35,417 nt of DNA from Gammaproteobacteria bacterium (GTDB lineage: Bacteria > Pseudomonadota > Gammaproteobacteria > Steroidobacterales > Woeseiaceae). Both the position numbers and the translations under genes were made by a program. Numbering within the stretch: position 1 is the first letter of the stretch; each line of letters begins with the position of its first letter. Where the stretch lies: assembly GCA_009937605.1 (NCBI GenBank), contig JAACFG010000011.1:1-35417 (forward strand). The letters are read 5' to 3'. This document shows, piece after piece, positions 1 to 34,231 of the stretch. Under the pieces are notes generated by a model. The model did no database searches, was not told the origin of the DNA, and saw only the letters and a program-made list of their open reading frames with translations.

Positions 1-672
1 TACGCGCAGATGGGTGTGGAGCTCAAGTACCTGATCACCGCCAGTTTCATGGCAGCGCCGGGTGGGCTGATGATGGCCAAGATCATGATGCCGGAGACCG
101 CGGCACACGAGGAGGCACCGGAGCAGGAAGAGATCGAAGAGGAAGATCCGCCCGTCAATATTTTCGAAGCGATCGGCAATGGCGCGATAATCGGTATGAA
201 CGTCGCGCTCAGTGTCGGGGCGATGCTGGTCGCTTTCGTCGGTCTCATTTATCTGATCAATGGTCTGCTTGGCCTCTTCGGGGGGCTGATCGGTGTCGAT
301 GACCTGACCGTCCAGTGGGTGCTGGGCAAGCTGTTCGCACCGATCGCTTTCCTGATCGGCGTACCCTGGGGGGAGGCCATTCAGGCAGGCAGCCTGATCG
401 GTCAGAAGCTCGTTATCAATGAGTTCTACGCGTTTGTCAGCTTCATTGAAATCAAGGAAACGCTCTCGCCGTACACGCAGCTCGTCGTCACGTTTGCACT
501 GTGTGGATTCTCCAATCTCGCATCAATCGCGATTCTCCTTGGCGGACTGGGCGCTATTGCGCCCACCCGGCGCCACGATATTGCAAGACTTGGTCTAAAG
601 GCGGTCATTGGAGGTACACTGGTCAACCTTTTAAACGCATCGCTTGCCGGGTTCTTTTTCGCCCTGCAGTAG
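1..672 (+). CDS. CNT-family nucleoside permease, C-terminal part (5' end outside window)
   Basis: The reading frame is open from the first base, so this is the C-terminal ~223 residues of a concentrative nucleoside transporter, an inner-membrane ion-coupled nucleoside importer. It aligns by eye along its whole length with the complete CNT at 10308-11528: both have LKYL, FMAAPGG and MAKI near the start of the visible part, then a charged cytoplasmic loop, then NEF and LCGF-x-N-xx-S motifs. In characterised CNTs the last two line the nucleoside site. The loop here is unusually acidic, with about ten Glu/Asp in 20 residues. The stop lies 12 bp before deoB, so the two are probably co-transcribed. 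Family assignment is secure; the substrate range is not visible. Confidence 0.93.
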
Positions 673-684
673 ATAAACAGGAAT

Positions 685-1887
685 ATGGCCAGAGCAATCA
701 TTCTCGTTCTCGACTCTTTCGGCATTGGCGCGACGGCCGATGCTGAGTCATTTGGTGACACCGGTTCGGACACGCTGGGCAACATAGCCCGGGAGCGAGC
801 CAGCGCCGGCCGGCCTTTGCAATTACCGAACCTGGCGAAACTCGGGCTGTTCCATGCCGGGCAGGAAAGCACGGGAAAATTCGCCACCGACGTTGATACC
901 GACGTCGAGATCATCGGTGCGTACGGACACGCCGCGGAAATGTCGAGCGGCAAGGATACGCCCAGTGGCCATTGGGAGATTGCGGGAGTGCCGGTCCTGT
1001 TCGACTGGGGTTACTTCACGGGAAAGACCGACACGTTCCCGCCCGAATTACTTGAGAAACTGATTGAAAGGGCGGATTTGCCGGGTGTTATCGGCAATTG
1101 TCACGCCTCGGGCACGACGATCATCGCCGAACTCGGTGATGAGCACGTGCGCACCGGCAAACCGATTGTCTATACATCGGCCGACAGTGTCTTCCAGATC
1201 GCATGCCACGAGGAGGCATTTGGTCTCGAGCGCCTGTACGAACTCTGTGATATCGCGCGCGAACTTGTCGATGACTACAACATCGGTCGTATCATCGCCC
1301 GGCCGTTCGTCGGCGATGGCCCTGATACCTATGCTCGTACCGCCAATCGCCGGGACCTGACGACGCCACCGCACGCGCCGACCGTGCTTGACAAACTGGT
1401 TGCCAATGGCGGTGACGTTATCAGCATCGGGAAAATCGCCGATATCTACGCACACCAGGGCATTACACAAAAGGTCAAAGCAAGCGGCAACGCGGCACTG
1501 TTCGATGCCACGCTCGATGCCGTGCGCACGGCTGGGGACGATACAATTGTCTTCACGAATTTCGTCGACTTCGACATGCTGTACGGTCACCGCCGCGATG
1601 TAGAAGGCTACGCGACCGCGCTCGAGTATTTTGATGGACGTCTGCCCGAAGTGCTTGAACTCATGAAAGAGGACGACCTGCTCGTCCTGTGTGCCGATCA
1701 CGGTTGCGATCCGACGTGGCCGGGCAGTGACCACACGCGCGAGCACATTCCGGTGCTCGCATACGGGGCAGGACTCAGGGCTGGCTCACTGGGTCAGCGC
1801 GAGACCTTCGCCGATATCGGGCAGAGCCTGGCCGCGCATTTCGGCCTCGAGCCTATGGATTACGGCAAGAGTTTTCTGAGTGAATAG
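685..1887 (+). CDS. deoB: Phosphopentomutase
   Basis: Interconverts (deoxy)ribose 1-phosphate and 5-phosphate in the cytosol, linking nucleoside phosphorolysis to central metabolism. The 400-residue length matches the family (E. coli DeoB is about 407). It belongs to the alkaline phosphatase superfamily: an N-terminal metal-binding DSFGIGA begins at residue 10, a TSADS segment sits near residue 165, and the C-terminal ADHGCDP and SDHTREH clusters carry further metal-binding Asp and His residues. The ATG follows an AGGA-like site in the 12-bp gap after the CNT gene. It partners functionally with deoA at 8938. No deoxyribose-phosphate aldolase (deoC) is present in the window, so if one exists it lies elsewhere. 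The next gene overlaps its last 8 bp. Confidence 0.97.
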
Positions 1888-3709
1888 TATTTTCGCAGAG
1901 CTCAAGCGGCGTAACGTCATTCGAGTTGCGGGCATGTATGCGGTGGTTGGCTGGGTGCTGGCTCAGATCGGGACGACGCTTGAGGAGACCATGGGGCTCC
2001 CTGCCTGGTTCGATGGCCTTATCGTTGCCCTGCTGCTTATCGGGTTTCCAATCGCACTGATACTCGCGTGGGCTTTCGAACTAACCCCGGAAGGCATGGT
2101 GAAGACGGAGGCTGTGCCCGAGGGTGAGAGCATTACGGCGGAGACCGCTCGGAAACTCGACTATGCGATCGTCTTCGGACTGGTGCTGCTGGTGGCCACA
2201 GTTCTCTGGCAGAGCAGCGGTACTGATGTGGTTGTTGTTGATAATGAAGTCGACACGGCGAGCGAACTGACGACCGGGAGTGCGGCAGAAGACACCTCGA
2301 TCGCGGTATTGCCATTTGCTGACCTTTCTCCGGCGAGTGATCAGGAGTATTTTTCGGATGGCATTGCCGAGGAGATACTCAACGTTCTTGTTGGTGTCAA
2401 AGGACTGGAAGTTACGTCACGAACATCATCGTTTCAGTTCAAGGGTGCGGATCTGGGCATTCCGGCTATCGCGAAATCCCTGAACGTACGGCACGTCGTC
2501 GAGGGCAGTGTGCGCAAGTCCGGTGAGACCATTCGAGTCACAGCACAGCTCATCGACGCCGATAACGACAAGCATCTGTGGTCGGACACATTTGATCGTC
2601 CACTCACCACAGAGAACATCTTCGCAATTCAGGACGAGATTGCGAAATCGATCGTTATGGCGCTGAGTGACACGCTCGGTATCGGGCGCCTCGAACCTGT
2701 TGAAGTTGTACCTGTTACAGAGAACCTGACCGCGTACGAATTGTTCCTGCAGGCACGGCCCCTGTTCCTCGCACGACTGGATCTCGATGTTGCCGACGAG
2801 TTGCTGGCCAGGGCCCTTGAGCGGGATCCCGAATTTTCAGAAGTGTGGGAAATGAGAGCGGCGCTTCAGACTCTGAAGTTTGAGTATGGCTATTCCGATT
2901 TGGCGATTGATGAAGCTGATCAGCTGGGCAACGAGTTTGCAGAGCGCGCGCTTTCATTGGAACCGAGAAGTGCAACGGCCATGGCAGTTATTGCAAAGGT
3001 AGACGGCAATGCCGCTCAGGCTCTCCGGAGAAAGGTGAACCTGGCAAGCGTCATCGCTGATTTCGACAAGGCTCTGGAGATAGAGCCGCGAAACGCATCG
3101 GCCCTGCTTTGGCGCGGGCTGCGTTATCTTGCGATCGGTGATCTTGACGCCTCACTCGAGGATTTTACGAAATGCCTGGAGTATGAGATCTACTACACGC
3201 CTTGCATGGAGAACTACTACACCACCCTGGCAGCCATGGGTCGCGATGAGGAAGCGATTACAGCATATTTGGAAGGCCTCAACACGAGCACCGTGCAGGT
3301 CGGGTATTCCCACCTTCCCTTGCTTGCGCGAAATGGCGAAGAAATAGCGTTCAAGTCGGCAACGAACAACGAGCATCTACTTCAGGGGTGGCGTCGGCAT
3401 GACGAGTTGTGGCTCGCCTACCAGAATCCGGAGCAGGATCACTCTGAGTTGATCGAGTCCGTTCGTAACTACGTGGACAATAGAGAAGGAGCGTATGAGG
3501 AAATCGCAGAATTTGTCGTGCAACCACTCGGCATGGGTTGGCGTATCCCTGACACGCTGCTTCTTTGGGATGCATCTTTGAAACACTATCGTCAGACCAG
3601 CGAATTCAAGACCTACATTCGCGAATCCGGCGTATTTGAGTATTGGCAGGCCGCAGGTTTTCCCCCTCAGTGCCGGCCAGTTGGCAGGAACGATTTCGAG
3701 TGCGACTAG
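1880..3709 (+). CDS. Membrane-anchored TolB-like/TPR protein
   Basis: This 609-residue protein starts at a GTG overlapping the deoB stop. The start is supported by the N-terminus (FAELKRRNV followed by a hydrophobic segment), which is typical of this family. Three membrane segments are visible, at about residues 15-33, 43-66 and 93-110. After them comes a TolB-amino-terminal-like domain (AVLPFADLS, then YFSDGIAEE, then [10 protein letters not shown] and TAQLIDA, about 140-265) and a TPR-like helical repeat region to the end. Related proteins often carry an adenylate cyclase or winged-helix domain in front; none is present here. Its role is unknown. A membrane signalling or scaffold function is a guess from architecture. 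It shares the deoB transcript, and its stop codon overlaps that of the convergent thioesterase gene. Confidence 0.85.
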
Positions 3710-4170
3710 ACCGAGCCCTTCCACGAATCCGGAACCCGAACCGCGATCACTTCGCCTTCAGCAGTTTGAACATCACCTGAGAAGACACGGCATTTCACCA
3801 GCGTCTTGCGCTCGCCGAACTCCTCGATCGTGGCGCGTAGTTCGAGATCCTTGTTGATCGGCGTCGGAGCGAGGTAGTTAACAGTCAGTCGGCCTGTCAC
3901 ACACCAGATTTCAGGTGCCGCGCCGATTTCGCGACCCTCCTGCAGGTAGTAGTTCGACAGGGCCGTCCCGACGCTGTGGCAGTCGATCAGGCTCGCGATC
4001 GTACCGCCGTAGACATAGTGCTCCGGGCCCGCGCACTGCTCCTGTCTTGGCGTGTAGCGACAAACGCATTCGTCACCGTGCCAGTGGCTCTTGATCTGCA
4101 TCCCTTTGTCATTGTCGGCGCCACAGCCATAGCAATGATTGTGCGGTAGCAGGTCCTGGATGGCGGTCAT
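3706..4170 (-). CDS. PaaI-like hotdog-fold thioesterase
   Basis: This 154-residue protein has the single-hotdog layout of PaaI/YbgC-type acyl-CoA thioesterases: an N-terminal HNHCYGCG segment, then YGGTIASLIDCHSVGTA. The latter corresponds to the family's GG..a.l.D helix, which carries the catalytic acidic residue, and is followed by TVNYLAP-type beta strands. It starts 3 bp after the stop of the lipoprotein amidohydrolase and is probably translated from the same mRNA, with only a weak ribosome site. The substrate cannot be predicted, and the protein has no obvious place in nucleoside metabolism. The family call is firm; the function is open. Confidence 0.88.
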   Translation of the reverse strand: MTAIQDLLPHNHCYGCGADNDKGMQIKSHWHGDECVCRYTPRQEQCAGPEHYVYGGTIASLIDCHSVGTALSNYYLQEGREIGAAPEIWCVTGRLTVNYLAPTPINKDLELRATIEEFGERKTLVKCRVFSGDVQTAEGEVIAVRVPDSWKGSV

Positions 4171-4173
4171 GCG

Positions 4174-5619
4174 TTATTTCGCCCGGTTTCTGTTGTCGAG
4201 CGCGGCCTGGATTCTCGCCGCAAGTGCGCTGGCTTCCGCTGCAACGCGCGAGGTATCGATCGTGAGCATCTCGCGTTCCCTCATCAGAATTTCTCCATCG
4301 ACAACAACGGAGGCGACATCCTGTTCATCACTGACGAATACAAGATGCGAAATGACGTTGTATGTCGGCACGTGGTGCACGTCTTCAAATGCTACCTGGA
4401 TCAGGTCAGCACGCTTACCGACTTCGAGAGAACCGATCGTGTCACCGAGGCCGATTGCCGTGGCGCCACCGCTGGTCGCCATGCCCAGCACGGTCGTGGC
4501 CGGAATGACTTCCGGATTCATACGGTCGACCTTCTGCAGGAGTGAAGCGAGGCGCATCTCCTCCCACATATCGAGATCGTTATTACTGGCCGCGCCGTCT
4601 GTGCCGAGCCCAACGCGCACTCCGGCGTCCAGCATCTCGGTAATCGGTGAGATACCGGAGGCGATTTTCATATTGGATGTCGGATTATGAATCACACCGA
4701 CCTTGCGCTCGGCGAGAATCGGGATTTCTTCCTTCGTCGGCCAGACGACATGTGCCGCGATCGTCGGTCCCTCAAAGAAGCCGATCGATTCGTACAACTC
4801 GATGCTCGGCATCCCGTAGGTATCCTGTGAATACTGCAGTTCGAACGGGGACTCCGAGACATGGATGCTGATCGGCACACCGAGTTCCATCGCGGCAGCC
4901 CGTGTCGCCGCAAGTTGCTCGGCATTCAGTGTGTAATTCGCGTGCGGTCCGAATATTGGTGAGATACGGCTGTTCCTGCCTTGCCAGCGTTGGACGAAGC
5001 CGACGCCCTTGGCAATAGAGTCGTCGGCGTTCTCGGCATCGGGGCTACGTTGGTCGATGACAGTTGCGGAAATCATCGCGCGCATACCGCAGCTGTCGAC
5101 GACTTCGGCGATGGTATCGGGGAAGTAGTACATATCGACGAACGTCGTCGTGCCGCCACGAATCATTTCCCAGCAGGCAAGTTCGGTCCCGATGCGGACG
5201 AACTCCGAGTCAACGAATTCCACTTCGGCCGGAAAGATGTAGTTCTGCAGCCAATCCATAAGATCGAGATCATCGGCGACGCCGCGAAGCAGGGTCATGG
5301 CCGCATGGGAGTGTCCGTTGACAAGACCGGGCATGACGACCCGGTTGTTGCCGTCGAGCGTCTCTTTGGCTCTGTATTCGGCTTCGATGTCGGCCACGCT
5401 GCCGATCGCGATGATCAGGCCTTCGTCGATCGCGACTGCGCCGTTGTGCAGAACAGTCCCGGCCGGGTCCATCGTGACGATGTGATCGCCTCTCACGATC
5501 AGGTCGATACGCTCGTCGTCCGCAGAATCCGGGGCACCGGACGCTGGTTCACGAGGACCGCAAGCGGCGACTGATGCTAATAGAAAAAAGCTTATTAAAC
5601 AGTATCTTATTGTTGTCAT
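4174..5619 (-). CDS. Lipoprotein amidohydrolase of the MtaD/SsnA deaminase family
   Basis: This is a metal-dependent amidohydrolase of the group containing methylthioadenosine/S-adenosylhomocysteine deaminase and chlorohydrolases. Visible hallmarks are NGHSHAAMTLLRG (HxH metal site), IHVSES, the HVVWP histidine, NPTSNMKIASG and GLGTDGAASNN (final Asp). I start it at 5619, not at the in-frame ATG at 5670. The 5619 ATG has a GAGAGGGA ribosome site and opens a lipoprotein signal peptide ending VAAC at Cys20. Glycine at +2 does not signal inner-membrane retention. Family members are normally cytosolic, so the export signal is unusual. A periplasmic or surface deaminase of adenosine-like nucleosides would suit the neighbourhood, but the substrate is inferred. 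An extended -10 lies just upstream. Confidence 0.9.
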   Translation of the reverse strand: MTTIRYCLISFFLLASVAACGPREPASGAPDSADDERIDLIVRGDHIVTMDPAGTVLHNGAVAIDEGLIIAIGSVADIEAEYRAKETLDGNNRVVMPGLVNGHSHAAMTLLRGVADDLDLMDWLQNYIFPAEVEFVDSEFVRIGTELACWEMIRGGTTTFVDMYYFPDTIAEVVDSCGMRAMISATVIDQRSPDAENADDSIAKGVGFVQRWQGRNSRISPIFGPHANYTLNAEQLAATRAAAMELGVPISIHVSESPFELQYSQDTYGMPSIELYESIGFFEGPTIAAHVVWPTKEEIPILAERKVGVIHNPTSNMKIASGISPITEMLDAGVRVGLGTDGAASNNDLDMWEEMRLASLLQKVDRMNPEVIPATTVLGMATSGGATAIGLGDTIGSLEVGKRADLIQVAFEDVHHVPTYNVISHLVFVSDEQDVASVVVDGEILMREREMLTIDTSRVAAEASALAARIQAALDNRNRAK

Positions 5620-5638
5620 AGTTCCCTCTCCGACGCGT

Positions 5639-5644
5639 ATTGTA
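5639..5644 (-). promoter_or_regulatory. Predicted extended -10 for the lipoprotein amidohydrolase
   Basis: Read on the minus strand this is TACAAT preceded by TGC, an extended -10 element. The -35 match is poor. Initiation about 7 bases downstream would give a very short leader that still contains the GAGAGGGA ribosome site. It lies downstream of the terminator of the preceding TonB receptor, which supports a separate promoter for this gene. Seen by eye only. Confidence 0.4.
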
Positions 5645-5669
5645 GCACCGGGATTTAAGGCGATGGCCA

Positions 5670-5693
5670 ACGCCGCTCGCGCACATCCATGTA
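5670..5693. repeat. Dispersed 24-nt intergenic repeat, copy 1
   Basis: The segment contains GCACATCCATGTA and matches 26277-26300 at 21 of 24 positions. Both copies lie next to the poly-A side of a terminator serving a minus-strand TonB receptor. The core is an imperfect small palindrome (ACAT-CC-ATGT). It looks like a dispersed intergenic repeat family rather than coding sequence. Confidence 0.6.
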
Positions 5694-5747: not shown

Positions 5748-7901
5748 TCAGAAGCTCTTGACCAGTCGCAGTCCGAATTCGCTCGCATCGTTACTCAGAA
5801 TCTGCAGGATATAGTCCCCGGTATTCAGGCGGGCGTTATCGTAGCGCTCGTCCGTCACATTACGACCGTAGAGACCCGCCGTGAATGAGCCATCCGGCGA
5901 GTGGTACGCGATATCGACGTTCAGCAATGCACGGCTGTCGATCGCCGTCAGACGGCCAGGATCCGAACTCGGCTCACCATACATATTGTCGCGATACGAG
6001 TAGTCCAGACGCATCCTGACTTCGGCGCCGCTTGCCAGCGGGATCGCCCACATCGGGCTTATCGACCAGGTGAGTTCCGGTGTCAATGGTGCAACCGGTT
6101 TCACGCCCTGCTGTTCGTCAACATCGACGTCGATGTAGCCAAGCGTTGCCTGGAACGAGAAATTATCCGTGAAGAAATACGTGTTTTCCCACTCGAAGCC
6201 GGTCGATGTCTGGTCGACGATCAGGTTCACGGTGCTGAAGCCGCCACCCGACGTGGTGCTAACCTGGTACGGAAGATCTGAGTACTCCGTCGTAAAGATC
6301 GCCGCGCTCATCGAGAAATGATCAGTGATCTGGCCCTTGATGCCGACCTCAAGGTTCGTGGCCGTGATGTTGTCGCTGGCTTTGAAGCAGTCGTCATCAT
6401 CATCCGGGTCGGTATCGGCAAACAGGCAGAACGGACGTGCCGGGTACTGGCCCGACTGGTAACCGGTTTGTACGGTCGCGTAGCCTGTCAGACCATTATC
6501 GAACGAATAATTTGCCGCCAGTTCCCAGGTAATCTCATCGAAGTCGCGACTATCGTCATAAGGTCCACTGCCAACATTGGTGAAAGCCGTCTTCTCGTCT
6601 TCCGTATAGCGCAGGCCGCCGGAAAGGCGAAACTTGTCTGTGAAGTCATAACCGAGATTGCCATAGATGGCCACGCTCGTAACATCCTGCGACAGGAAAA
6701 ACGTCCCGGGGAATGTCAGGAACACGGTCGGGTCCTGGTTGTTGAAGCCGTCTTCCTCGAAGTAGTAGAGGCCGGATACAAAGTCGAATGCACCCATGTC
6801 ACCACTGAACTGGAATTCAAGTGATGTCTGGTCCGCCTCGCCGGTCTCCGGGAATGACAGGAAGTCGTCAACAAAGCTGTCATCATCAAGACCTGCCTTG
6901 TACTCGGACGTACGGGTGCTGGCGATGATCTTCGAACTGTAGGTGTCATTCCAGTTCCAGTCCGCCGTCAACGAGAAGCCCTCTGCCTTGTTGGTCACGA
7001 TTGTCTGGCTGGCTTGCCCGGTGTTGTTATCGTAAGGATCGGAAGAAACGTCGGAATTGCGGTAGCCCGCGCCATACACAGCGCCGTTCGGCAATTCGTC
7101 GATCAATGTCGTGTAGGGACGAAGACCGCCTTCGCCGTCATTGGCGTCATAAGCCAGGACCAGCGAGAAATTGTCGCTCGGAGCGTAACGCAGGGCAGCG
7201 CGTCCATAAACTTCCTTCGTTTCGCCAACTTCGATGCCGGCATTCGGCAGATTCAGGAAATCGCCGAGCCCATCACGACTCCTGTAGCCGCCCGTGAATG
7301 CCAGGGCGACCGTATCCGAAAGATTCATGTCGGCGTAGAAATCACCATTGAGTCGTCCACGGCTGCCGACTTCGAGGCCAACCTTGGCACCTTCATTGGC
7401 GCCGGGCGTCTTGGTGATGATGTTGATCGCGCCACCGATGGAGTTACGGCCGTACAGGGTGCCCTGGGGACCGCGCAACACTTCGATACGCTCAATGTTG
7501 GTCAGGTTCCAGTTCTGGCCGACCTGGCGGCCCAGGTAGACACCGTCCACGTAGACGCTCACACCGGGGTCCGTGGTGATCAGGTGATCCTGCAGGCCAA
7601 TGCCACGAATGAACGGGTTGGCCGAGGAGATATGGCCGGCGGAAAACTGGGTGATATTGAGGTTCGGCACGAACTTGCCAATATCCACGATTTCGATAAT
7701 GCCTTGCTCGGCGAGCTTGTCGCCCTCAAATGCGCTGATCGCGATAGGCACCTCATAGATGCTGGCCTCGCGCTTGGTCGCTGTGACCATGATTTCTTCA
7801 ATAAGGGCGTCGTCACCATTCTGCGCGATCGCGGTTGGCGAAACGGCCAGCGCGGATGCAAGAGCAACGAACAGGAGACCCTTAACCTTGTGATTGTTCA
7901 T
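5748..7901 (-). CDS. TonB-dependent outer-membrane receptor (FecA/CirA-like)
   Basis: A 717-residue outer-membrane receptor. The signal peptide ends near residue 26 (SPTAIAQ). Next come a TonB-box-like segment (EEIMVTATKRE), a plug domain with NPFIRGIG, VYVDGVYLGR, IERIEVLRGPQGTLYGRN and GGAINIITK, and a long beta-barrel ending in Phe, as expected for barrel insertion. The ATG has a GGGGGA ribosome site. Receptors of this type move ligands across the outer membrane using TonB energy. The ligand is not readable from sequence. Neighbouring deaminase and nucleoside genes suggest nucleosides or oligonucleotides as a hypothesis only. It is transcribed alone: a terminator follows it, and a TATAAT -10 lies 72 bp upstream. 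Confidence 0.95.
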   Translation of the reverse strand: MNNHKVKGLLFVALASALAVSPTAIAQNGDDALIEEIMVTATKREASIYEVPIAISAFEGDKLAEQGIIEIVDIGKFVPNLNITQFSAGHISSANPFIRGIGLQDHLITTDPGVSVYVDGVYLGRQVGQNWNLTNIERIEVLRGPQGTLYGRNSIGGAINIITKTPGANEGAKVGLEVGSRGRLNGDFYADMNLSDTVALAFTGGYRSRDGLGDFLNLPNAGIEVGETKEVYGRAALRYAPSDNFSLVLAYDANDGEGGLRPYTTLIDELPNGAVYGAGYRNSDVSSDPYDNNTGQASQTIVTNKAEGFSLTADWNWNDTYSSKIIASTRTSEYKAGLDDDSFVDDFLSFPETGEADQTSLEFQFSGDMGAFDFVSGLYYFEEDGFNNQDPTVFLTFPGTFFLSQDVTSVAIYGNLGYDFTDKFRLSGGLRYTEDEKTAFTNVGSGPYDDSRDFDEITWELAANYSFDNGLTGYATVQTGYQSGQYPARPFCLFADTDPDDDDDCFKASDNITATNLEVGIKGQITDHFSMSAAIFTTEYSDLPYQVSTTSGGGFSTVNLIVDQTSTGFEWENTYFFTDNFSFQATLGYIDVDVDEQQGVKPVAPLTPELTWSISPMWAIPLASGAEVRMRLDYSYRDNMYGEPSSDPGRLTAIDSRALLNVDIAYHSPDGSFTAGLYGRNVTDERYDNARLNTGDYILQILSNDASEFGLRLVKSF

Positions 7902-19983: not shown

Positions 19984-22889
<2,906 letters not shown>

Positions 22890-22897
<8 letters not shown>

Positions 22898-23768
22898 CAG
22901 TTAATGGCCCGTAGGTCTCCGGGCGTCGATCGCGGAAGAACTGCCAGGTGTCGCGCACCTCGCGCACCATGTCGAGGTCGATCTCATGCACCAACAGCTC
23001 ATCATCGCCGTAACTGGCTTGCGCTTCGATTGCACCGCGAGGATTGACGATATAGCTGGATCCGTAGAACTCACCCATATTGTGCGTCGAGGCCCAGGGT
23101 TCTTCGCTACCGATGCGATTGATTGCGCCGATGAATACGCCGTTCGCTGCAGCCGATGCCGGCTGTTCGAGTTCCCACAGGTACTTCGATAGTCCCGCAA
23201 CGGTCGCGGATGGATTGACGATGTACTCGGCACCATTCAGTGCCAGCGCGCGCCAACCCTCGGGGAAGTGCCGGTCGTAGCAAATGTAGACGCCGAGTTT
23301 CAGATAGGCGGTTTCGAAAACAGGATAGCCGAGATCGCCGGGTTTGAAGAAGAACTTCTCGTAGAAGCCGGGATCGACCTGGGGAATGTGCGTTTTGCGG
23401 TATTTGCCCAGGTACCTGCCATCGGCGTCGATGACCGCGGCCGTGTTGTAATACACGCCCGTCATATGTTCCTCATAAATCGGTACAACGATCACCATGT
23501 TGTACTTCTTCGCATATTCCTGCATCAGCTGCGTTGTCGGCCCGTCGGGAATTTTCTCAGCGGCGGCGTACCACTTGCGGTCCTGGCCGGGGCAGAAATA
23601 GGGTTGGGTAAAGACTTCCTGAAAGCACAGGACCTGGACTCCCTGCTTGCCGGCATCTTCGATGAACGGAATATGCGCCTCGATCATACGCTCCCGGATT
23701 TCATCGGGTTGCATCGAGCCGTCGCCCTTGAGCGCCATCTGGATCAGGCCACACTTAACCTTGGACAT
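22890..23768 (-). CDS. Beta-ureidopropionase (N-carbamoyl-beta-alanine amidohydrolase)
   Basis: A nitrilase-superfamily amidase that hydrolyses N-carbamoyl-beta-alanine to beta-alanine, CO2 and ammonia, the final step of reductive pyrimidine breakdown. The Glu-Lys-Cys triad is visible: Glu51 in FQEVF, Lys125 in KYRKTHIPQ and Cys163 in YICYDRHFPEG. I start the gene at 23768 rather than 23783 because a GAGAGGGA site precedes this ATG at good spacing and MSKVKCGLIQ is the expected N-terminus. This gives 292 residues. It is the first gene of a six-gene operon with hydA and preTA. An N-carbamoyl-D-amino-acid or putrescine amidase is less likely in this setting. Confidence 0.95.
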
Positions 23769-23797
23769 GAGTTTCCCTCTCAACGGATTTTGTTGTT

Positions 23798-26377: not shown

Positions 26378-29300
26378 TTAGAAGTTGTACTGGAAGCCGA
26401 TACGCATTCTCCAGAGCGAAGCTCGTGTCGAGCGGCTCTGGCTCTGAGGAACGTATTCCTCGAACACATACTGACCATTTTCCAGGCTTGCCTCAACGAC
26501 CGGCGCGGCACGCGGGAAGCTGCGTTCGTACAGCACGCCCCATTCGTCATTGAGCAGGTTGCCGAGATTTTCGATCGTGAAGTAGATGCTGGCCTTTTGA
26601 TCGCTGGCGAAACCGGGGATTTCCTGGCTGATACGCAGATCAAACTTGGTCCACCAGTCGCTTTGCAGAGAGTTGCGAGCAACAATGCCGCCACCGTACT
26701 TGGTCAGGCCTTTTCCTTCTGCCCATGCAAAGAATGCGTCCTGGTCGAAGCCCGGATCGAAGACGACGTTCGGGTCATTGGGACCGTCAGGCATGTACAA
26801 CAAGCTGCGATCGTCATCCGGGCAGAAGAACGGCCCGCAGACGAACATCGCCTGCTCAGAGAACGTAGCGCTGTAAGGACGGCCCTTGTTGGCAGAACCA
26901 AACAGGGTGAAGCGCGTCACGTTATTGCCAAACCACTCAGCCTGGTAGCCGAGCTTCGCGATGAACCGATGCTCCATCTCGTAGTTTGCCCTGGCGACGC
27001 CTGGATCGTTCGGATCCCCAACGGAAATGTTGAAGAAGTTGGAGAATGCGACCGAACTCGTCATCGGGCTGACTTCGGTGGAATCCGTGTACGCGTAACC
27101 AAGGGTCCAGTCCAGACCGAAGTCATGGACTTTGCTAAGCGTTGTAGAGAAGCTCAGCTGCTCGCCATCGCTACCCTGAACGTTGTCCAGGATGAAGTCG
27201 CCATTGAAGAGACGATCACACACGGGCCCTGTGCCAATAGGGTCGGTATCACAGCCCGCAACACTCTTGTCGGCCTGGTAGTAGATGGGCCGACCGTCAG
27301 GTGCCGTGTCAGTCTGCACATACGTGTCGTCACGGATGACCGCCGAGTTATCAGATCTCGAGAAGATCAGGTCGGCATTGAGCAGGTACCCGTCTCCGAA
27401 ATTCCAACTCGCACCCAGTGAGAGCTTCCAGTTAGCCGGAATCTCGAAGTTGGGATCAATTGCGTTCACACCAGAGTTTGCTGTCCCATTGGCAACGAAG
27501 TCGATCATTGTTGATGGCGCATCAAATACCGGCTGGCCATTGCCGTCTGTGCCGAGAGGTACCGGGTCTGCGCCATTAGCGCCTGGAGAACCGAGGAAAC
27601 GATCAGGATTGATATTCAGGTCTCGAACGTCACCATCACCTTCGCGCGCCTGTACCTGCGTGATACCGTCGTTCTGGTAGTTGTTACCCAGCCACACGTT
27701 CGGGTTGCCACCGCTGTAGAGACCGAAACCACCGCGCAAAGTCAGATCTTCGTTGATACCCCAGCTGAAGCCCAGTCGAGGTTGCAGCAAGTCCAGACCG
27801 TCGAAATTCTTGCGGTTCGTGAAGCCCGTGCGCGCGATAAAATTACTGTTCTCCGTCGGCAGGTCGCTGCTCGTATACCAGTCGTATCGCAAGCCTGCGA
27901 CCAGGATGAAGTCGCTATTCGGAAACGTGATCTCGTCCTGGACGTAAACAGTGTTAACCGCGTAGGCGAACTCGGCGGCCGCATCATTCGGATTCAGGGA
28001 CGGCGCCGCATTGCCGTAGTAGATGTCGTCCGGGCTGAGGGCTTCGAACTGATCAATACAACCGTCCGGATTGCCGTCACGGCTGCAACCAACCGTATTG
28101 CCGTCGAGGTCCGTATTCTCCTCGTCGAAGCGATACTCGCCGATCGTGTGCTGCAGGAACAGGTTGAAGATATCGACTTCTTCCATCTCGTAGCCGAACC
28201 CCCAGAGGTGGTCCCCTGCGGACCAGTTGCCCGCGAGCTTGAGATTCAGGGTGGTGTAATCAAGATCGTTTGACTGACGGGAGTCGTCGCCACCGAGATA
28301 GACGATCGCCCGATCGAAGCTGCCGTCACCATCATTGTCGGCATAGGTCTCGATCTGTACTTCGCCAAAGCCTTGGTTGTTGATTGTTTCCTGCCGGTTG
28401 TCGAGATCGGAGTAGCCGACCTTGACTTCCGTGCTGAACCTGTCGGTCCAGTCAGAAAATACCATCACGTTATAGGCTTTCAGCTCAGCGCCACGCTCGT
28501 AGAAATGATTCGAAAACTCGTATTCGTCGGAATCACTATCAGACTGCGATGTATTGAAGCCGTCGTTGTAGTTGTATGTAAACGCCGCATTGTGATTGTC
28601 ATTAATAGTCCAATCCAGACGCAGCAGGTACTTCTCGTCGTCGTAGGGCCTGTTCAGGATGGTGGCGCCTGGATCATAGCCGTAAACGTTCTGGGCAATC
28701 TGGGCGATCCTGTCGAGCTGTGCCTGTGTGGTACCGGCAACCGGACGACCGCAGGTCTGATCGCCGGCGCAGCGATCGAATATGTCCGCAGCGTCTCTCT
28801 TCTCATACGAGAAATGGAAGAAGAGATTGTCTTGAACAATTGGGCCGCCGACCGAGAATCCCCAGCGCGTGTCATCGAAACTGCCCTGATCGATTTTGTC
28901 GCCTTCGAGCGAATCTCCTATGAAACTGTCGTCTCCGTAGCTTGCCCAGAATCTGCCAGTCCAGGAATTGGTGCCCGAGCGTGTTACGGCGTTGACGTTA
29001 CAGGCCGTGAAGCCGCCGTACTGTACATCGAACGGGGATAGCTCAACAGACACCTGTTCAATCGCATCGAACGGGAACGGCATGCGTTGCGTCGGGTAGC
29101 CATTGCTGTTCAAGCCGAAGTTGTCATTCTTTTTGACGCCATCGACCGTCAGGCTGTTGAACCGGGGGTTCGCACCGACACACTGCACGGAATCGACAAA
29201 GGCCCTGTCAATATAGACGCGGGGATCGACGCGCACGATGTCATTGATGTCACGATTTATCGACGGCATGTTCTGCAGGTCGTCGAAACTGAAGCTCGTC

Positions 29301-29746
29301 GCCGGCCCAAGGGCCACTTGTGTGACTTGAACAACGGCGGCCGTAACGACGATTTCCTCGATATCCGCCGGACTCAGGGTAACCGCTGAATTAAACGTCT
29401 CACCCAGATTGATATAGACATCGGTAACCGTGTGGCTGGCATGATCGGGCATGGTGATAACGACCGTGTACGGGCCACCAACAGAAAGGTCACCTACCTG
29501 GTACTGCCCCGAGGCGGACGAGGTCGCTCGACTGACGCGCCCCGTTCGGGTATCTGTGATTTGAATGGTTGCGCCCACAGCCGCACTACCATCGGAAGCC
29601 GTAAGGCTGCCGCGTATGGCGGAAGTGGTTTCCTGTGCGTTTGACGCAACAGGAAGAGCGACAATAAAAACTGCGGCCAGGGCCACAAGCGATAACTGTT
29701 TCATCGCTGCGAACGCCGACCTGAAGACTCGAGATTTTTGATTCAT
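26378..29746 (-). CDS. Oar-like TonB-dependent receptor with carboxypeptidase-regulatory-like domain
   Basis: A large outer-membrane receptor (1122 residues from the chosen start). The signal peptide ends ASNAQ, after a long basic N-terminus. Next comes a carboxypeptidase D regulatory-like beta domain (about 40-130: AIRGSLTASDGSAAVGATI...), then a divergent plug (NDIVRVDPRVYID, GGFTACNVNAVTRSGTN), then a long barrel ending GFQYNF. This is the layout of Oar-type receptors. I chose the ATG at 29746 because of its GGGGAT site; in-frame codons up to 29857 add no signal-like sequence, and an ATG at 29704 is a less likely alternative. The ligand is unknown. The gene is monocistronic, with its own terminator and a palindrome in its promoter. 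Confidence 0.93.
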   Translation of the reverse strand: MNQKSRVFRSAFAAMKQLSLVALAAVFIVALPVASNAQETTSAIRGSLTASDGSAAVGATIQITDTRTGRVSRATSSASGQYQVGDLSVGGPYTVVITMPDHASHTVTDVYINLGETFNSAVTLSPADIEEIVVTAAVVQVTQVALGPATSFSFDDLQNMPSINRDINDIVRVDPRVYIDRAFVDSVQCVGANPRFNSLTVDGVKKNDNFGLNSNGYPTQRMPFPFDAIEQVSVELSPFDVQYGGFTACNVNAVTRSGTNSWTGRFWASYGDDSFIGDSLEGDKIDQGSFDDTRWGFSVGGPIVQDNLFFHFSYEKRDAADIFDRCAGDQTCGRPVAGTTQAQLDRIAQIAQNVYGYDPGATILNRPYDDEKYLLRLDWTINDNHNAAFTYNYNDGFNTSQSDSDSDEYEFSNHFYERGAELKAYNVMVFSDWTDRFSTEVKVGYSDLDNRQETINNQGFGEVQIETYADNDGDGSFDRAIVYLGGDDSRQSNDLDYTTLNLKLAGNWSAGDHLWGFGYEMEEVDIFNLFLQHTIGEYRFDEENTDLDGNTVGCSRDGNPDGCIDQFEALSPDDIYYGNAAPSLNPNDAAAEFAYAVNTVYVQDEITFPNSDFILVAGLRYDWYTSSDLPTENSNFIARTGFTNRKNFDGLDLLQPRLGFSWGINEDLTLRGGFGLYSGGNPNVWLGNNYQNDGITQVQAREGDGDVRDLNINPDRFLGSPGANGADPVPLGTDGNGQPVFDAPSTMIDFVANGTANSGVNAIDPNFEIPANWKLSLGASWNFGDGYLLNADLIFSRSDNSAVIRDDTYVQTDTAPDGRPIYYQADKSVAGCDTDPIGTGPVCDRLFNGDFILDNVQGSDGEQLSFSTTLSKVHDFGLDWTLGYAYTDSTEVSPMTSSVAFSNFFNISVGDPNDPGVARANYEMEHRFIAKLGYQAEWFGNNVTRFTLFGSANKGRPYSATFSEQAMFVCGPFFCPDDDRSLLYMPDGPNDPNVVFDPGFDQDAFFAWAEGKGLTKYGGGIVARNSLQSDWWTKFDLRISQEIPGFASDQKASIYFTIENLGNLLNDEWGVLYERSFPRAAPVVEASLENGQYVFEEYVPQSQSRSTRASLWRMRIGFQYNF

Positions 29747-29855
29747 TATTGATCCCCGACTTTTAGAAACGCGAAAGTCCAGCGCCCGACTATGACAGCT
29801 GGGTTTCGCCTGGTTATTTTTCGCCCAATTTCGAGCCGAAGGCACGAAAGTGGAC

Positions 29856-29861
29856 ATTATC
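29856..29861 (-). promoter_or_regulatory. Predicted -10 of the Oar-like receptor gene
   Basis: GATAAT on the minus strand, one mismatch from consensus. The -35 position at 17-18 bp spacing falls inside the perfect palindrome at 29873-29887 and is itself weak, suggesting that a bound protein controls this promoter. Leader length would be about 100 nt. Confidence 0.35.
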
Positions 29862-29999: not shown

Positions 30000-31871
30000 C
30001 TATTGTTTTCCTGTCATTTCGATCGTTGCGACGATTGGCCAGTGGTCGGAGACGCCGGACTTTTCGGCGCTCCGATAGCGTTGTGGCACGCCGTCTGCGG
30101 ACACCTGCGCGGGGTTGTCGTTTGCAACCCCCACCGAATCAGCGCGAATTCCTGCTGTTGCTTTTTCACCACGGGCCGGCGAGAACAGGATCATGTCGAG
30201 GAATGACCAGGTGTCGTCACGACCGTAATAGTAAGTACCTTCACAGTCGCGGCAACCGAGATCGTGCGCCACCACCCAGACCGGCCGAGCATAGTCGTCC
30301 AGCATATTCTCGCGGACATCCTCGGTACTCGTCGTGTTGAAGTCGCCGGCGGCGAACACGTGGTGATCGTCGGGCAGGGCGTTTCGCAATGCCGCCAGGT
30401 GCTCATAGGCAGCAACCCGCATCGGTGTCGGATGAAACGGGGCGGGAAAATGCACGCTGAATCCGGTCAGGACGGAACCATCGGGCATTTCGAAGTCGGC
30501 CTGCAGCACGCCGCGCGTATCGCCCTGGCGGTCGGGAAACTCCGGGATCAGCAGCGGGTGTAATTGTGGCTCGCCCACGAGCGGTAGTTTCGACAGAAAG
30601 GCGACATCGATGCCCCGCGTATCCGTTCCCTCGACCAGGATCGCTGGAAGGTAACCAAGGCCGTCGAGGTGTTCATTGCGCAGTCGCTCGAGTACCGCGA
30701 CGTTCTCGACTTCCTGCATCGCGATGATGTCGGCGCCCTGACCATTGTTTACCTGGCGAATGGTCGTCGCGAGCACACCGAGTTTGTGATCCAGCGCTGC
30801 ATCGCTCCAGTCGAGATACAGGCACTCATTACGCCAGCTCTCGACTTCGATGCCATTGCAGGCTTCGATGTGCGCTGCGTTCTGCTTTGCCGCCAGTGGC
30901 AGATAGGCTTTGTCGTCCTTGCCAGGATCGTCGACATTGTCGAACAGGTTTTGCACATTGAAGGACATGACGGTCACGCCGCCCCCGGCTCGCGCCTCCA
31001 CCGGAATGTCGAGATCGATGCGCAACAATAATGAGTGCTTGTTCTCTCCGGTTACCATGATCGTGCGCCGGTCGTCGGCGAACGCGACGGCCTCGGCATT
31101 CTTGAAATTGCCCAGCCCGATTCGAATCGGTTTGTTGTTGAGTGCCTCGAACCAGGTCTGGTTTGGGCGTCGCAGGTAATAGTAGACAGCCCGGTACGTC
31201 AGTATGACGGCGGCGCGGTTATCCTGCGATATGTCCATGCCAACGGGTTGCCAGTGCCAGTCCTTCGTCTTGGGGGCAAACTCGACATCCTGGCGGCTGG
31301 GTCTTGGCAGGCTGTCGATCGTACCGAGCCAGGTTGCGGTTACCTTGTCGTCATCGTCAGTCCGCAGGGGTACTTCGTAAAGTGATGGAGGTATGTCGCG
31401 TTTCGATAGCACCAGCGCACGCTCATTTTCGATATCGACGGCTACGGCTTCGGCATCGCGTCTTCCGTTCGGATACTTGAACCGGACTTCCCAGTCGACC
31501 TTGGTTTTGCCCTCGCCAGCCTTCGGTTCCTTGAAGACATAGAGCGTGCGGGTTTTGTGCTGAAGGTCATTGTCGCCGATATCGGCGACAACCAGGTAGG
31601 GTTCGCCGTCGAGCGTAAACGAGGCGAGGTCTTCCCAGTCCTTGTTGTTCGACTTCTTGAGTTCGGTCCTGCCGAGGCTCGCGCCGGTCAGGTCAATCGC
31701 GTACAGGATTTCCTTGGCGCCGCTGTCATTGATGATCCAGAGTACGCCCGGTTCGCGCTGGGAGCGCGCAAGTCCGCTGGCTTCGCGGATCTTCGGGTCT
31801 TCGAGGCGTCCGGCGACCTCGAATGCCAGCGTTGCCGGCTGCTCCGCATTGGAGCAGCCGGCAAGCAGCAC
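30000..31871 (-). CDS. Lipoprotein with propeller-like domain and endonuclease/exonuclease/phosphatase domain
   Basis: The N-terminal half (to about residue 300) looks like a beta-propeller (EASGLARS, VLWIINDSGA, VVADIGDND, EAVAVDIENE). The C-terminal half is an EEP-fold hydrolase with its catalytic set visible: SFNVQNLF (Asn), MQEVEN (Glu), HFPAPFHP, AGDFNTT (Asp/Asn) and SDHWP (Asp/His). EEP members include DNase I-like nucleases and phosphodiesterases. The GTG at 31871 gives only five residues before the lipoprotein Cys (LLAGC). Reading upstream in frame adds RRVVLLV, a normal lipoprotein signal, so a non-ATG start at 31892 (ATT) or 31895 (CTG), on top of the preceding receptor's TGA, is likely. 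An extracellular nuclease feeding the nucleotidases is my inference. Confidence 0.85.
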   Translation of the reverse strand: MLLAGCSNAEQPATLAFEVAGRLEDPKIREASGLARSQREPGVLWIINDSGAKEILYAIDLTGASLGRTELKKSNNKDWEDLASFTLDGEPYLVVADIGDNDLQHKTRTLYVFKEPKAGEGKTKVDWEVRFKYPNGRRDAEAVAVDIENERALVLSKRDIPPSLYEVPLRTDDDDKVTATWLGTIDSLPRPSRQDVEFAPKTKDWHWQPVGMDISQDNRAAVILTYRAVYYYLRRPNQTWFEALNNKPIRIGLGNFKNAEAVAFADDRRTIMVTGENKHSLLLRIDLDIPVEARAGGGVTVMSFNVQNLFDNVDDPGKDDKAYLPLAAKQNAAHIEACNGIEVESWRNECLYLDWSDAALDHKLGVLATTIRQVNNGQGADIIAMQEVENVAVLERLRNEHLDGLGYLPAILVEGTDTRGIDVAFLSKLPLVGEPQLHPLLIPEFPDRQGDTRGVLQADFEMPDGSVLTGFSVHFPAPFHPTPMRVAAYEHLAALRNALPDDHHVFAAGDFNTTSTEDVRENMLDDYARPVWVVAHDLGCRDCEGTYYYGRDDTWSFLDMILFSPARGEKATAGIRADSVGVANDNPAQVSADGVPQRYRSAEKSGVSDHWPIVATIEMTGKQ

Positions 31872-31891
31872 TAGTAGAACTACGCGGCGAA

Positions 31892-34231
31892 TCAGTCGCC
31901 GAACTCTAAGCTGACTTCCAGGCCCCAGATTCTGGGTTCATTGACGAAGCCCGTGTTGTTGCTGAAATCGATAAAGCCGAGCACGTTGTTCTCGTCCGTA
32001 ATGTTACGGCCGAACAGGGCGACCTCGAGACCGCTTTGGTGATTCATGTAGCCAATTCGGAGTCCGCCCTCGTACTGATTCGAGGTCTGGAACTCTACGG
32101 CCTCATACAGAGGCATGTTGATATCGCCGTACCAGACCCAGTCGGTCAGGAAGTAGATCTCCGAGTCGGCGCCGATCGGCCTGCCGTACCGAATCTCCAG
32201 GTTAGCGGTGGTCTCCGGCGCTCTCGGGAACGGGTTACCGTCGACCGAAACCTGTGATGTGTTGTCCGGGTTGACCGGGTCGAGCACCGTACACAGGCCT
32301 GATCCGCAAGGCGCCGTGAACAGGTTCGGGTCATTGATTTCGGTGTCGTTGTACGCCAAGCCGCCGGATACCAGCAGGTTGTCAGTGATCAGGAATTGCG
32401 CGTCGATTTCAAAACCGACGGCCTCGCCTTCCTTGGAGTTGACTACCTGGTTCGTATTGGATGCGCCGCCGATAATCGACAACTGCATATCGTCGACTGT
32501 GTACGAGAACACGCCAATGTTCAGGCGCACGCGATTGTTGGCGAGATCGGCTTTGTAGCCGGCCTCGTACGAGGTGATCGTCTCCGGGTCGGCAACCGAT
32601 GGGCTCTCGCCGAAGGCGACATCACGACCCTGGATCGTTTGCGCACGGAAGCCATTGGCGACTCGTCCGTACAGGCTCGAGTTGTCAGTCAGCGCATAGT
32701 TCGCGCTGATTTCCCAGCTCGATTGGCTGTCGTCAACCAGGATATCTTCGGGCACCGGAATACCCAGGTTTTGCCACAAGTAAGCCTGCTGTAACACGGT
32801 GAAACCTTTTTCATCATCCGTGTAGCGCACGCCGGCCGCCAGGGTCAGGCGATCGGTCACGTCGTAGCTGCCCTGGCCGAATACAGCCCAGGCCGTGTTG
32901 TCGTACTGAACGATATTGTTCTGTACGAAATTAAGATCGTCATCAAACGACGCAAAGTTCTCCGTTTCGACTTTGAGCATGGAGTCGAAGTAGAAGAGGC
33001 CAATCTGCCAGTTGAATGGGCCGTCGTCGGCGCTCGAAAGGCGAAATTCCTGCGTGAACTGGTCGGTTTCGGCGCCGTCCTCAGTAACCGATGGTACGAG
33101 GATCTCACCAGGCCAGGTCCTTGCCGGGAGGCATGGGAAAGGGCACAGAACGTTGGTATCCGCCCACGTGAGACCATCGGGCGGTGTCGGCGTGGAGAAG
33201 ATGTTGACGACACCACCGTCGATATCACCGCGGCTCGAACCGTCGGCATCCTGGAACGAGGTGATCGAACTGAAACTGGTATCGTCGAAGTCCCAGGTCA
33301 GGTTCAGCGTTACGCCGGTCGAATCATAGCCCTGCGGGTTATTGTCGCCCCCGTCGTACCAGACCGTGTCACGTGTGTAGTTCTGGTTCAGGTCGTTGCT
33401 TCCCGTCGTGAATACGTTCGCGCGGAAGATTGACGAGGTGCCTTCGAGGCTGCGCGTCTGGACGCTGAGCAATGCACTGAAGCGATCGGTTGGTTCCCAG
33501 AGCCCCTGGAGGCGAACGGCTACGTCCTCATAGTCGCCGAGAGATTCCAGTCCGGTCTGGCCGTTGGTGATCCAGTTGTCGCGAGTGCGGTACAGGACAG
33601 AAGCGCGTCCCGCAAACGTACTGCCGAGACTGCCGCCGACCGCACCGTCAACATTGATGGTGTTGTTCTCGGCCCAGGATACCCTGGCGTACCCTGAAGT
33701 TTCGTCCGCCGGGCGGCGCGTATTGACCTTAATGATGCCGGCCGTCGTGTTCCGACCGAACAGCGTGCCCTGGGGACCGCGAATGACTTCGATGTTCTGT
33801 ACGTCGAAAATCGGGAAACTCTTCAGGACAGTATTTTCCAGGACAACATCGTCCATGATGAACGACACGGGCTGGGATGCTCCAAGGTCAAAGTCGATGT
33901 TGCCTAGTCCACGAAGGTAAAAACGCGGCGCGGCGCGGCCATTCGATGACTCGGCATACAAACCGGGGACGCGTCCTGACAGGGCGAGAACGTCCTCGCT
34001 GCCAGAGAACAGCGCGTGCAGATTTTCACCCTGGATCGTGGCAACGGAAATTGGAACGTCCTGCAACGCTTGTTCGCGTTTCTGCGCAGTGACTACGATT
34101 TCTTCCAGAACCCCTTCCATCTGCGCCATTGTGGGCGCTGCAAGCAAGCTCGCGAGGGAGATCGCGGCGGCGCCTTTCAAGGCGAGGTTAAGGGAGGAGC
34201 GCTTCTTGTTTGTTGTGTCTGAACCACACAT
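31892..34231 (-). CDS. TonB-dependent outer-membrane receptor
   Basis: A 779-residue receptor. The signal peptide ends APTMAQ near residue 37; then EEIVVTAQKRE (TonB-box-like), a plug with FYLRGLGNIDF, IEVIRGPQGTLFGRN and TAGIIKVNTRRP, and a 22-strand-type barrel. I start it at the ATG at 34231, which has an AGGAG site 8 nt upstream; the in-frame extension to 34339 runs into the cupin gene and adds no signal. The C-terminus is LEFGD, so Phe is third from the end and not terminal as usual. It lies between a cupin gene (40 bp upstream) and the EEP lipoprotein (overlapping or within 20 bp), suggesting one transcript for binding, cutting and import of one substrate. Confidence 0.94.
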   Translation of the reverse strand: MCGSDTTNKKRSSLNLALKGAAAISLASLLAAPTMAQMEGVLEEIVVTAQKREQALQDVPISVATIQGENLHALFSGSEDVLALSGRVPGLYAESSNGRAAPRFYLRGLGNIDFDLGASQPVSFIMDDVVLENTVLKSFPIFDVQNIEVIRGPQGTLFGRNTTAGIIKVNTRRPADETSGYARVSWAENNTINVDGAVGGSLGSTFAGRASVLYRTRDNWITNGQTGLESLGDYEDVAVRLQGLWEPTDRFSALLSVQTRSLEGTSSIFRANVFTTGSNDLNQNYTRDTVWYDGGDNNPQGYDSTGVTLNLTWDFDDTSFSSITSFQDADGSSRGDIDGGVVNIFSTPTPPDGLTWADTNVLCPFPCLPARTWPGEILVPSVTEDGAETDQFTQEFRLSSADDGPFNWQIGLFYFDSMLKVETENFASFDDDLNFVQNNIVQYDNTAWAVFGQGSYDVTDRLTLAAGVRYTDDEKGFTVLQQAYLWQNLGIPVPEDILVDDSQSSWEISANYALTDNSSLYGRVANGFRAQTIQGRDVAFGESPSVADPETITSYEAGYKADLANNRVRLNIGVFSYTVDDMQLSIIGGASNTNQVVNSKEGEAVGFEIDAQFLITDNLLVSGGLAYNDTEINDPNLFTAPCGSGLCTVLDPVNPDNTSQVSVDGNPFPRAPETTANLEIRYGRPIGADSEIYFLTDWVWYGDINMPLYEAVEFQTSNQYEGGLRIGYMNHQSGLEVALFGRNITDENNVLGFIDFSNNTGFVNEPRIWGLEVSLEFGD

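Follow-up and report, generated by a model that had tools for sequence, protein, structure and literature searches.

What unites a stretch of bacterial DNA in which genes for the uptake, cleavage and reductive breakdown of nucleosides stand beside nucleotidase lipoproteins and three TonB-dependent receptors? The stretch (hereafter the window, 35,417 nucleotides) is the entire contig JAACFG010000011.1 (C130) of a Woeseiaceae metagenome genome (3.12 Mb, 232 contigs, 86.6% complete), and an earlier note had proposed that it forms one integrated, multi-step locus for using extracellular pyrimidine nucleotides, equipped with its own receptors. Comparison with relatives argues for the integrated part of that proposal, and we consider it likely that the window is a single locus, conserved in Woeseiaceae, by which RNA and DNA from outside the cell are turned into food, including demethylation of nucleosides by a PHYHD1-type dioxygenase whose gene had been overlooked.

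Gene content

Pfam and NCBIfam scans of the window's open reading frames, with nearest solved relatives taken from PDB matches, give 26 genes. These comprise all 19 that had been named before, some recognised by domains or nearest structures below NCBIfam cut-offs, and seven additional ones: a TPR protein, a thioesterase, the PHYHD1-type dioxygenase (PF05721), a TfoX_N protein, a sortilin/BNR protein, a cupin and a partial SDR. The named genes do stand together in one stretch; that it holds little else was put too loosely, as seven of the 26 are others. The named genes and the dioxygenase are as follows.

10..672, plus strand: CNT nucleoside permease 1, C-terminal part (Nucleos_tra2_C, E 3.4e-77), truncated by the contig start, frame open from base 1
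685..1887, plus strand: DeoB phosphopentomutase (TIGR01696 above cut-off)
4174..5670, minus strand: lipoprotein of the methylthioadenosine/S-adenosylhomocysteine (MTA/SAH, adenosine-type) deaminase family (Amidohydro_1; 4f0r, E 2.7e-99; lipobox VAAC)
5748..7901, minus strand: TonB-dependent receptor 1, slot 1 (PF00593 and Plug)
8030..8929, plus strand: PHYHD1-type Fe(II)/2-oxoglutarate (2OG) dioxygenase, predicted 2'-O-methyl-nucleoside demethylase (PF05721; human PHYHD1 2opw/3obz, E 3.7e-61)
8938..10251, plus strand: DeoA thymidine phosphorylase (TIGR02643 above cut-off)
10308..11528, plus strand: CNT nucleoside permease 2 (TIGR00804 above cut-off)
11533..12483, plus strand: nucleoside hydrolase, RihA/UriH-like (PF01156, E 2.2e-98; under NCBIfam equivalog cut-offs)
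12483..13325, plus strand: ribokinase-like PfkB kinase (TIGR02152, 217.7 bits; cut-off 299.65)
17010..17408, minus strand: cytidine deaminase (TIGR01354 above cut-off)
17405..18685, minus strand: PreA, dihydropyrimidine dehydrogenase subunit, cassette (NF006183 above cut-off)
18688..19983, minus strand: PreT-like dihydropyrimidine dehydrogenase subunit, cassette (domains Fer4_20 and Pyr_redox_2; no NCBIfam cut-off reached)
19983..21422, minus strand: dihydropyrimidinase, cassette (TIGR02033 above cut-off)
21419..22897, minus strand: NCS1 base permease, cassette (PF02133, E 1.3e-96)
22890..23783, minus strand: beta-ureidopropionase-like CN hydrolase, cassette (PF00795; no NCBIfam cut-off reached; nearest structures 2vhh (CG3027) and beta-ureidopropionases 8pt4/6ftq)
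23844..24641, minus strand: e(P4)-like acid phosphatase/5'-nucleotidase lipoprotein (PF03767; TIGR01533, 119 bits, cut-off 216; lipobox)
24664..26271, plus strand: 5'-nucleotidase lipoprotein, UshA/CD73 superfamily (PF02872, PF00149; 2z1a, E 2.2e-25; CD73 4h2f; lipobox)
26378..29857, minus strand: TonB-dependent receptor 2, CarboxypepD_reg type, slot 2 (PF25183, PF13620; Plug just under cut-off)
30000..31871, minus strand: lipoprotein with a YjiK-like beta-propeller and an EEP phosphoesterase/nuclease domain (PF19580/PF03372; AlphaFold2 and Foldseek)
31892..34339, minus strand: TonB-dependent receptor 3, slot 3 (PF00593 and Plug)

The two longest one-strand runs are tightly packed, with intergenic gaps of -8 to 60 bp. 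The first comprises the genes for the PHYHD1-type (PhyH) enzyme, DeoA, CNT permease 2, hydrolase, kinase, TfoX_N and sortilin, the second those for e(P4), ureidopropionase, NCS1, dihydropyrimidinase, PreT, PreA and cytidine deaminase. A lipobox motif is present in all four lipoproteins, and the real start codon of the deaminase lipoprotein probably lies inside its open reading frame.

A gene order shared by many Woeseiaceae

A search of 107 Woeseiaceae genomes, the window's own included (E <= 1e-60), found matches to DeoA in 85, PreT in 73, PhyH in 67 and the 5'-nucleotidase in 66. DeoA and the 5'-nucleotidase occur together in 61 genomes and lie no more than 40 kb apart on one contig in 40 of these, on an identical strand every time, with PreT between them in 32 of the 40. 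Forty-four neighbourhoods were then compared, namely the window and 43 from 42 relatives, picked for a close PreT or for long contigs, or, for genomes without PreT at the locus, by their PhyH, DeoA or 5'-nucleotidase matches. The window's gene order recurs in genus g1 and in G004, G005, G009, G027 and G105, which represent five other genera; with the window's own genus this makes at least six in which it is conserved, several neighbourhoods showing part of it only. The enzymes around the receptors are mostly 50–97% identical in relatives, and a family member assembled as a single contig of 4.06 Mb (G105) carries the locus with the pyrimidine cassette missing. This recurrence of order rules out a chance neighbourhood, and the comparison proposed by the earlier note thus found its grouping conserved in many Woeseiaceae.

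The claim that does not survive is that of a pyrimidine-only scope, which is ruled out by what lies to the right of the locus in relatives: DeoD in 20 of the 44 neighbourhoods, DeoC in 19 (on the opposite strand in G064 and G074) and an aldehyde dehydrogenase (ALDH) in 14. Among the 24 neighbourhoods without DeoD, G011, G082 and contig C1 of G093 are long enough yet lack it, and the other 21 end before that point; the window's contig likewise stops short of the DeoD-DeoC-ALDH position.

A PHYHD1-type dioxygenase among nucleoside genes

The protein encoded at 8030–8929 is 41.6% identical to human PHYHD1 over 274 aligned residues (2opw/3obz), and a lipid role, as a phytanoyl-CoA enzyme, is disfavoured by the E values (3.7e-61 for PHYHD1 versus 5.9e-13 for phytanoyl-CoA dioxygenase). 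Extracts of a study published in December 2025 describe PHYHD1 and its relatives from bacteria, fungi, plants and viruses as demethylating 2'-O-methyl nucleosides in free form but neither nucleotides nor RNA, with docking placing the ribose against K102, H105, Q139 and W277 (PMC12709175). In an alignment of 38 bacterial sequences (the window's, 29 from family members and eight from outside), the HxD...H iron site and 2OG arginine at positions 156, 158, 246 and 257 are kept in every sequence, the window's included. The same holds for the equivalents of all four ribose-contacting residues, which are kept together in none of 22 PF05721 paralogues from the same or nearby genomes (35 matches minus eight locus-type and five left out). 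Both iron histidines are kept in 22 of 22 paralogues and W277 alone in nine; the paralogues are just 15–26% identical to the window protein, and 18 of the 22 show a gap where K102 aligns, so single columns of this alignment are uncertain. At position 161 the 38 sequences have Tyr (23) or Phe (15), Tyr being the residue in the bacterial enzymes covered by those extracts (PMC12709175). From its residues the 8030–8929 product is predicted to be a 2'-O-methyl-nucleoside demethylase.

Genome context points the same way. In 61 of 68 family matches the gene lies on the same strand and no more than 2.5 kb before DeoA, 58 of these being 5–38 bp away, and DeoA is present in all 67 genomes that carry it. 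The remaining seven matches comprise two at contig ends (G083, G031), one partial match (G033), one ambiguous case (G098) and three in which the gene lies away from deoA (G001, G011 and G081, the first two only 41–43% identical). The nucleoside hydrolase is present in 23 of 27 neighbourhoods with the PHYHD1-type gene and in two of five without it, a link that is suggestive only.

Beyond the family, an even sample of the class (369 genomes) yielded the gene in just two genomes, both from the genus of the window, and an even sample of the phylum (398 genomes) gave eight outside matches, three beside nucleoside genes and five not. The three, from another class, have cytidine deaminase, DeoA and PNP_UDP_1 adjoining, with DeoB and BPD_transp_2 permeases in two. 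Searches within the orders of two positives placed DeoB beside the gene in 11 of 11 and 16 of 21 cases. Pooled, 28 of 38 distinct outside genes lie beside deoB or deoA and ten do not, a proportion biased upward by the two order searches, which began from known positives, the unselected figure being the three of eight from the phylum sample. The order also differs from that in the Woeseiaceae, the gene following deoB or deoA rather than preceding deoA. A PHYHD1-type gene (44%) was seen on the mobilizable plasmid NZ_CP029836 of Azospirillum ramasamyi. Among the matches listed from the open-licence literature, no description of a bacterial PHYHD1 gene cluster was found.

A dioxygenase placed directly before thymidine phosphorylase in 61 of 68 family matches might act on another nucleoside position, for example by hydroxylating thymidine or deoxyuridine, and fungal pyrimidine-deoxynucleoside dioxygenases do exist. 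We regard this as quite unlikely: the ribose-contact residues are kept, and outside the family the usual neighbour is DeoB, which serves both ribose and deoxyribose. A weak further point is that DeoA stays in all five neighbourhoods without the gene, three of which also lack the hydrolase and kinase; what makes it weak is that the gene is kept in four more neighbourhoods that have no hydrolase. The PHYHD1-group enzymes tested according to the extracts, moreover, demethylate 2'-O-methyl nucleosides (PMC12709175). Demethylation of 2'-O-methyl nucleosides is accordingly the activity carried forward here as a prediction.

A removable pyrimidine cassette

The reductive-pathway genes from PreA to beta-ureidopropionase form a single run in the window, with gaps of -8 to 2 bp. 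These five genes (PreA, PreT, dihydropyrimidinase, NCS1 and ureidopropionase) sit between those for cytidine deaminase and e(P4), and the cassette is complete in 30 of the 44 neighbourhoods, absent in nine and partial in five, four of the partial ones lying at neighbourhood or contig ends and the fifth being G011. Where it is absent, cytidine deaminase still stands beside the gap in eight of nine (G082 is uninformative); next to it comes e(P4) or the 5'-nucleotidase, 9–125 bp away, in six, and a receptor match, some 615 bp away, in two. The preTA-to-ureidopropionase part is a removable five-gene cassette, optional at the locus; the route to beta-alanine that the earlier note described is encoded in the window, and it is not a fixed part of the locus. 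In G093 the cassette, and in G005 PreT, lies on a separate contig.

The best 80 of 168 records for PreT include some that are clearly named and not Woeseiaceae; these come from Rhizobiales and Kiloniellaceae (59–62% identity). PreA adjoins PreT in all seven of these alphaproteobacterial relatives (L172–L178), with no NCS1 or ureidopropionase match around PreT within the sequence examined. A recent import of the cassette is not supported by these matches; some of its genes may have been transferred long ago, in either direction.

Surface lipoproteins and receptors

Slot 2, which has the 5'-nucleotidase on one side and the EEP lipoprotein on the other, holds a receptor in 25 of 25 neighbourhoods with both borders visible, the window included. 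These receptors are 33–63% identical to the window's, with 20 on the minus and five on the plus strand. The inverted ones are in G040, G064, G074, G076 and G087, where the neighbouring genes are not inverted; as the neighbours keep their orientation, exchange of the receptor at a fixed place is suggested.

The EEP lipoprotein is a fusion of an N-terminal propeller, with the C-terminal domain of YjiK (3qqz) as top Foldseek match, and a C-terminal EEP domain whose fold resembles TDP2 and nocturnin (Foldseek on an AlphaFold2 model, mean pLDDT 76, pTM 0.52). The residues that we take to be the EEP motif are invariant across 16 aligned sequences. No PDB match was found by sequence, the fold comparison placing the superfamily only, and the protein scores 19.4 bits against the ExeM/NucH model (cut-off 300). 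The two halves are separate matches in several relatives, with separate frames seen in G046 (the EEP half) and G099; the fusion thus occurs in the window and some relatives, and separate proteins in others (L053; L271/L288).

Two nucleotidase-type lipoproteins are present, as had been claimed; the label UshA was imprecise for the second, which is nearer to the Thermus 5'-nucleotidase and CD73. The first metal motif of this protein is DTY, against DTH in 2z1a. In a published survey, as far as its extracts show, the Woeseiaceae are scored as without ushA-like and cpdB-like genes, which places the window's enzyme outside the set counted there (PMC10454023). Near-full-length 5'-nucleotidase matches in G025, G029, G066, G076 and G081 each carry a single in-frame stop (TAG, TAA or TGA), reflecting broken genes or sequencing errors. 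For the deaminase lipoprotein, whose top solved relative is the MTA/SAH deaminase 4f0r, this closeness makes adenosine-type substrates plausible.

Two phosphatase-type lipoproteins could also mean that the locus chiefly scavenges phosphate from nucleotides, the catabolic genes disposing of the leftovers. This is very improbable in our judgement, with no phosphate transporter among the window's scanned open reading frames (Pfam), and with sugar and base catabolism encoded alongside, extended by DeoC and ALDH in relatives.

A proposed route from nucleic acids to beta-amino acids

The likely alternative, use of the nucleic acid itself as food, can be drawn as a pathway in which gene content, order, module boundaries, motifs and contexts are observed and all substrates and fluxes are inferred. 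In the surface module, the e(P4)-like, 5'-nucleotidase and EEP lipoproteins would release nucleosides from nucleic acids and nucleotides outside the cell, and the receptors (slots 2 and 3 belonging to this module) would carry the nucleosides across the outer membrane, from where the CNT permeases would take them inward. The nucleoside module would comprise CNT, the deaminase lipoprotein, the PHYHD1-type enzyme, DeoA, nucleoside hydrolase, ribokinase, DeoB and cytidine deaminase. Here the PHYHD1-type enzyme would first strip 2'-O-methyl groups, which would otherwise resist hydrolase and phosphorylase, giving ordinary nucleosides. Ribonucleosides would be split by the hydrolase into base and ribose, the latter passing to the kinase; deoxynucleosides would be phosphorolysed, their sugar being handled by DeoA and DeoB, and in relatives by DeoD, DeoC and ALDH, which would complete purine-nucleoside cleavage and the deoxyribose end. 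From uracil and thymine the reductive cassette would yield beta-amino acids and ammonia.

One locus or neighbouring operons

Several observations weigh against this proposal, among them the ten outside PHYHD1-type genes without deo neighbours, the bias of the order searches, the three family genomes with the gene away from deoA and the distance of the paralogues, all given above. The receptors are the least conserved parts of the locus (33–73% identity in relatives): slot 1 is filled in 15 and empty in 15 of 30 neighbourhoods, with three kinds of receptor among the filled, and slot 3 is filled in ten of 18 and empty in eight. The EEP protein was matched in 16 genomes outside the family and stands beside no nucleoside genes in the seven neighbourhoods examined there, on which ground the idea that the surface module is a widely distributed unit was rejected. 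The relatives' DeoC was not found in the window's own, incomplete genome, which has only a 41% match elsewhere. G011 and contig C1 of G093 lack the locus around PreT, and in G082 the order stops after CNT permease 2. In two small genomes of about 1.5 Mb (G045 and G094), the whole surface module is missing (e(P4), 5'-nucleotidase, receptors and EEP protein), and with it the PHYHD1-type gene, the hydrolase and the kinase; both retain DeoB, the deaminase, DeoA, CNT, cytidine deaminase, the cassette and DeoD-DeoC-ALDH. Finally, unrelated cytochrome oxidase (cox) genes, named by NCBIfam, lie on the left in nine of the 14 locus neighbourhoods that extend 5 kb or more on that side (G011 and G093:C1 left out), from which it follows that the order is partly inherited synteny by common descent.

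These last genes, and the variable receptors, two of which match siderophore-type models, both under cut-off, would suit an explanation by ordinary neighbouring operons (for pyrimidine catabolism, nucleoside salvage and phosphate scavenging) held together by inherited synteny, with receptors for other ligands such as iron chelates or peptides. We think this unlikely. Five of the 14 have another left flank (G067, G070, G082, G084 and G093), and four of those five, all except G082, keep the interior as far as the sequence extends; modules are lost as units, slot 2 holds a receptor in 25 of 25, and the link between the PHYHD1-type gene and deo genes recurs outside the family in a different gene order. 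A single nucleic-acid-using locus therefore remains the reading we prefer.

Other genes of the window

The six remaining genes are the following.

1880..3709, plus strand: TPR protein (TPR families), adjoining DeoB in G040 too
3706..4170, minus strand: 4HBT-type thioesterase (PF03061)
13318..13644, plus strand: TfoX_N protein (PF04993), in five of 44 neighbourhoods
13657..16959, plus strand: large secreted sortilin/BNR-repeat protein (PF15902), in six of 44 neighbourhoods, at the end of the deoA run
34272..34619, minus strand: small cupin (PF07883), in nine of 44 neighbourhoods
from 34658: partial SDR

As possible dedicated sensors or regulators the window offers only the TfoX_N and TPR proteins, and each is missing from most relatives.

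Relation to known systems

Polysaccharide utilisation loci of the SusCD type bring together, in a single block, hydrolases at the surface, TonB receptors, permeases of the inner membrane and catabolic genes. The comparison with them made in the earlier note is apt in that TonB receptors stand beside surface hydrolases and catabolic genes; it fails for the SusD-like partner, as Pfam found neither a SusD-like protein nor a glycan hydrolase among the window's 26 genes. The cargo here would be nucleosides, and the window's receptor slots vary between relatives. A bolder proposal, which we offer tentatively and hold with rather less conviction than the existence of the locus, is that it may be dedicated to nucleic acids and do for nucleotides what polysaccharide utilisation loci do for glycans, its receptor slots being swappable and taking nucleosides or oligonucleotides, and one of its enzymes serving to digest 2'-O-methylated RNA. 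PHYHD1, in animals known for a part in nucleoside turnover, may on this view be at root an enzyme of bacterial nucleoside-catabolic operons, where RNA methyl marks serve as food.

The DeoA, DeoB, DeoC, DeoD and PreTA enzymes (named by NCBIfam) are shared with E. coli, in which the deo and preTA genes are in separate operons, whereas in the window deo- and preTA-type genes are joined with receptors, nucleotidases and a dioxygenase. With the PHYHD1/FJS demethylases, as extracts describe them, the window enzyme, whose activity is predicted, shares PF05721, the HxD...H iron site, the K102/H105/Q139/W277 equivalents and Tyr161; the extracts give no genome context for the bacterial PHYHD1-type genes (PMC12709175). 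The RK9NH/RK9DPA 2'-O-methyluridine cluster, again according to extracts, is likewise a bacterial gene pair degrading 2'-O-methylated nucleosides, with a deoxyribose-phosphate aldolase relative adjoining, but uses a nucleoside hydrolase instead of a dioxygenase (PMC6278475).

No description of such a combined locus was found among the matches listed from the open-licence literature, in which the DNA-degradation loci of Candidatus Izemoplasmatales are the nearest printed idea. In extracts of that paper, these loci show co-located secreted nucleases, phosphohydrolases and transporters, with synteny and a proposed use of environmental nucleic acids; unlike the window, they have ABC and phosphate transporters and several nucleases, and the authors were unable to identify genes by which pyrimidine bases would be degraded anaerobically (PMC8289736). 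Its main text contains the word TonB zero times, whereas the window has TonB receptors, CNT and NCS1 permeases, a PHYHD1-type enzyme and a reductive cassette in one block.

Significance

Woeseiaceae are widespread in marine sediments. There, according to extracts of the same paper, extracellular DNA is a major source of phosphorus, nitrogen and carbon (PMC8289736). The part of the locus most worth testing is the context of the PHYHD1-type gene: as this gene has nucleoside genes around it in two classes of bacteria, genome context backs PHYHD1 biochemistry independently, and it indicates the next destination of 2'-O-methyl nucleosides. If the proposal is true, TonB receptors would gain a testable cargo, and a single block of genes would show nucleic-acid eating by Woeseiaceae, from the cell surface to beta-alanine.

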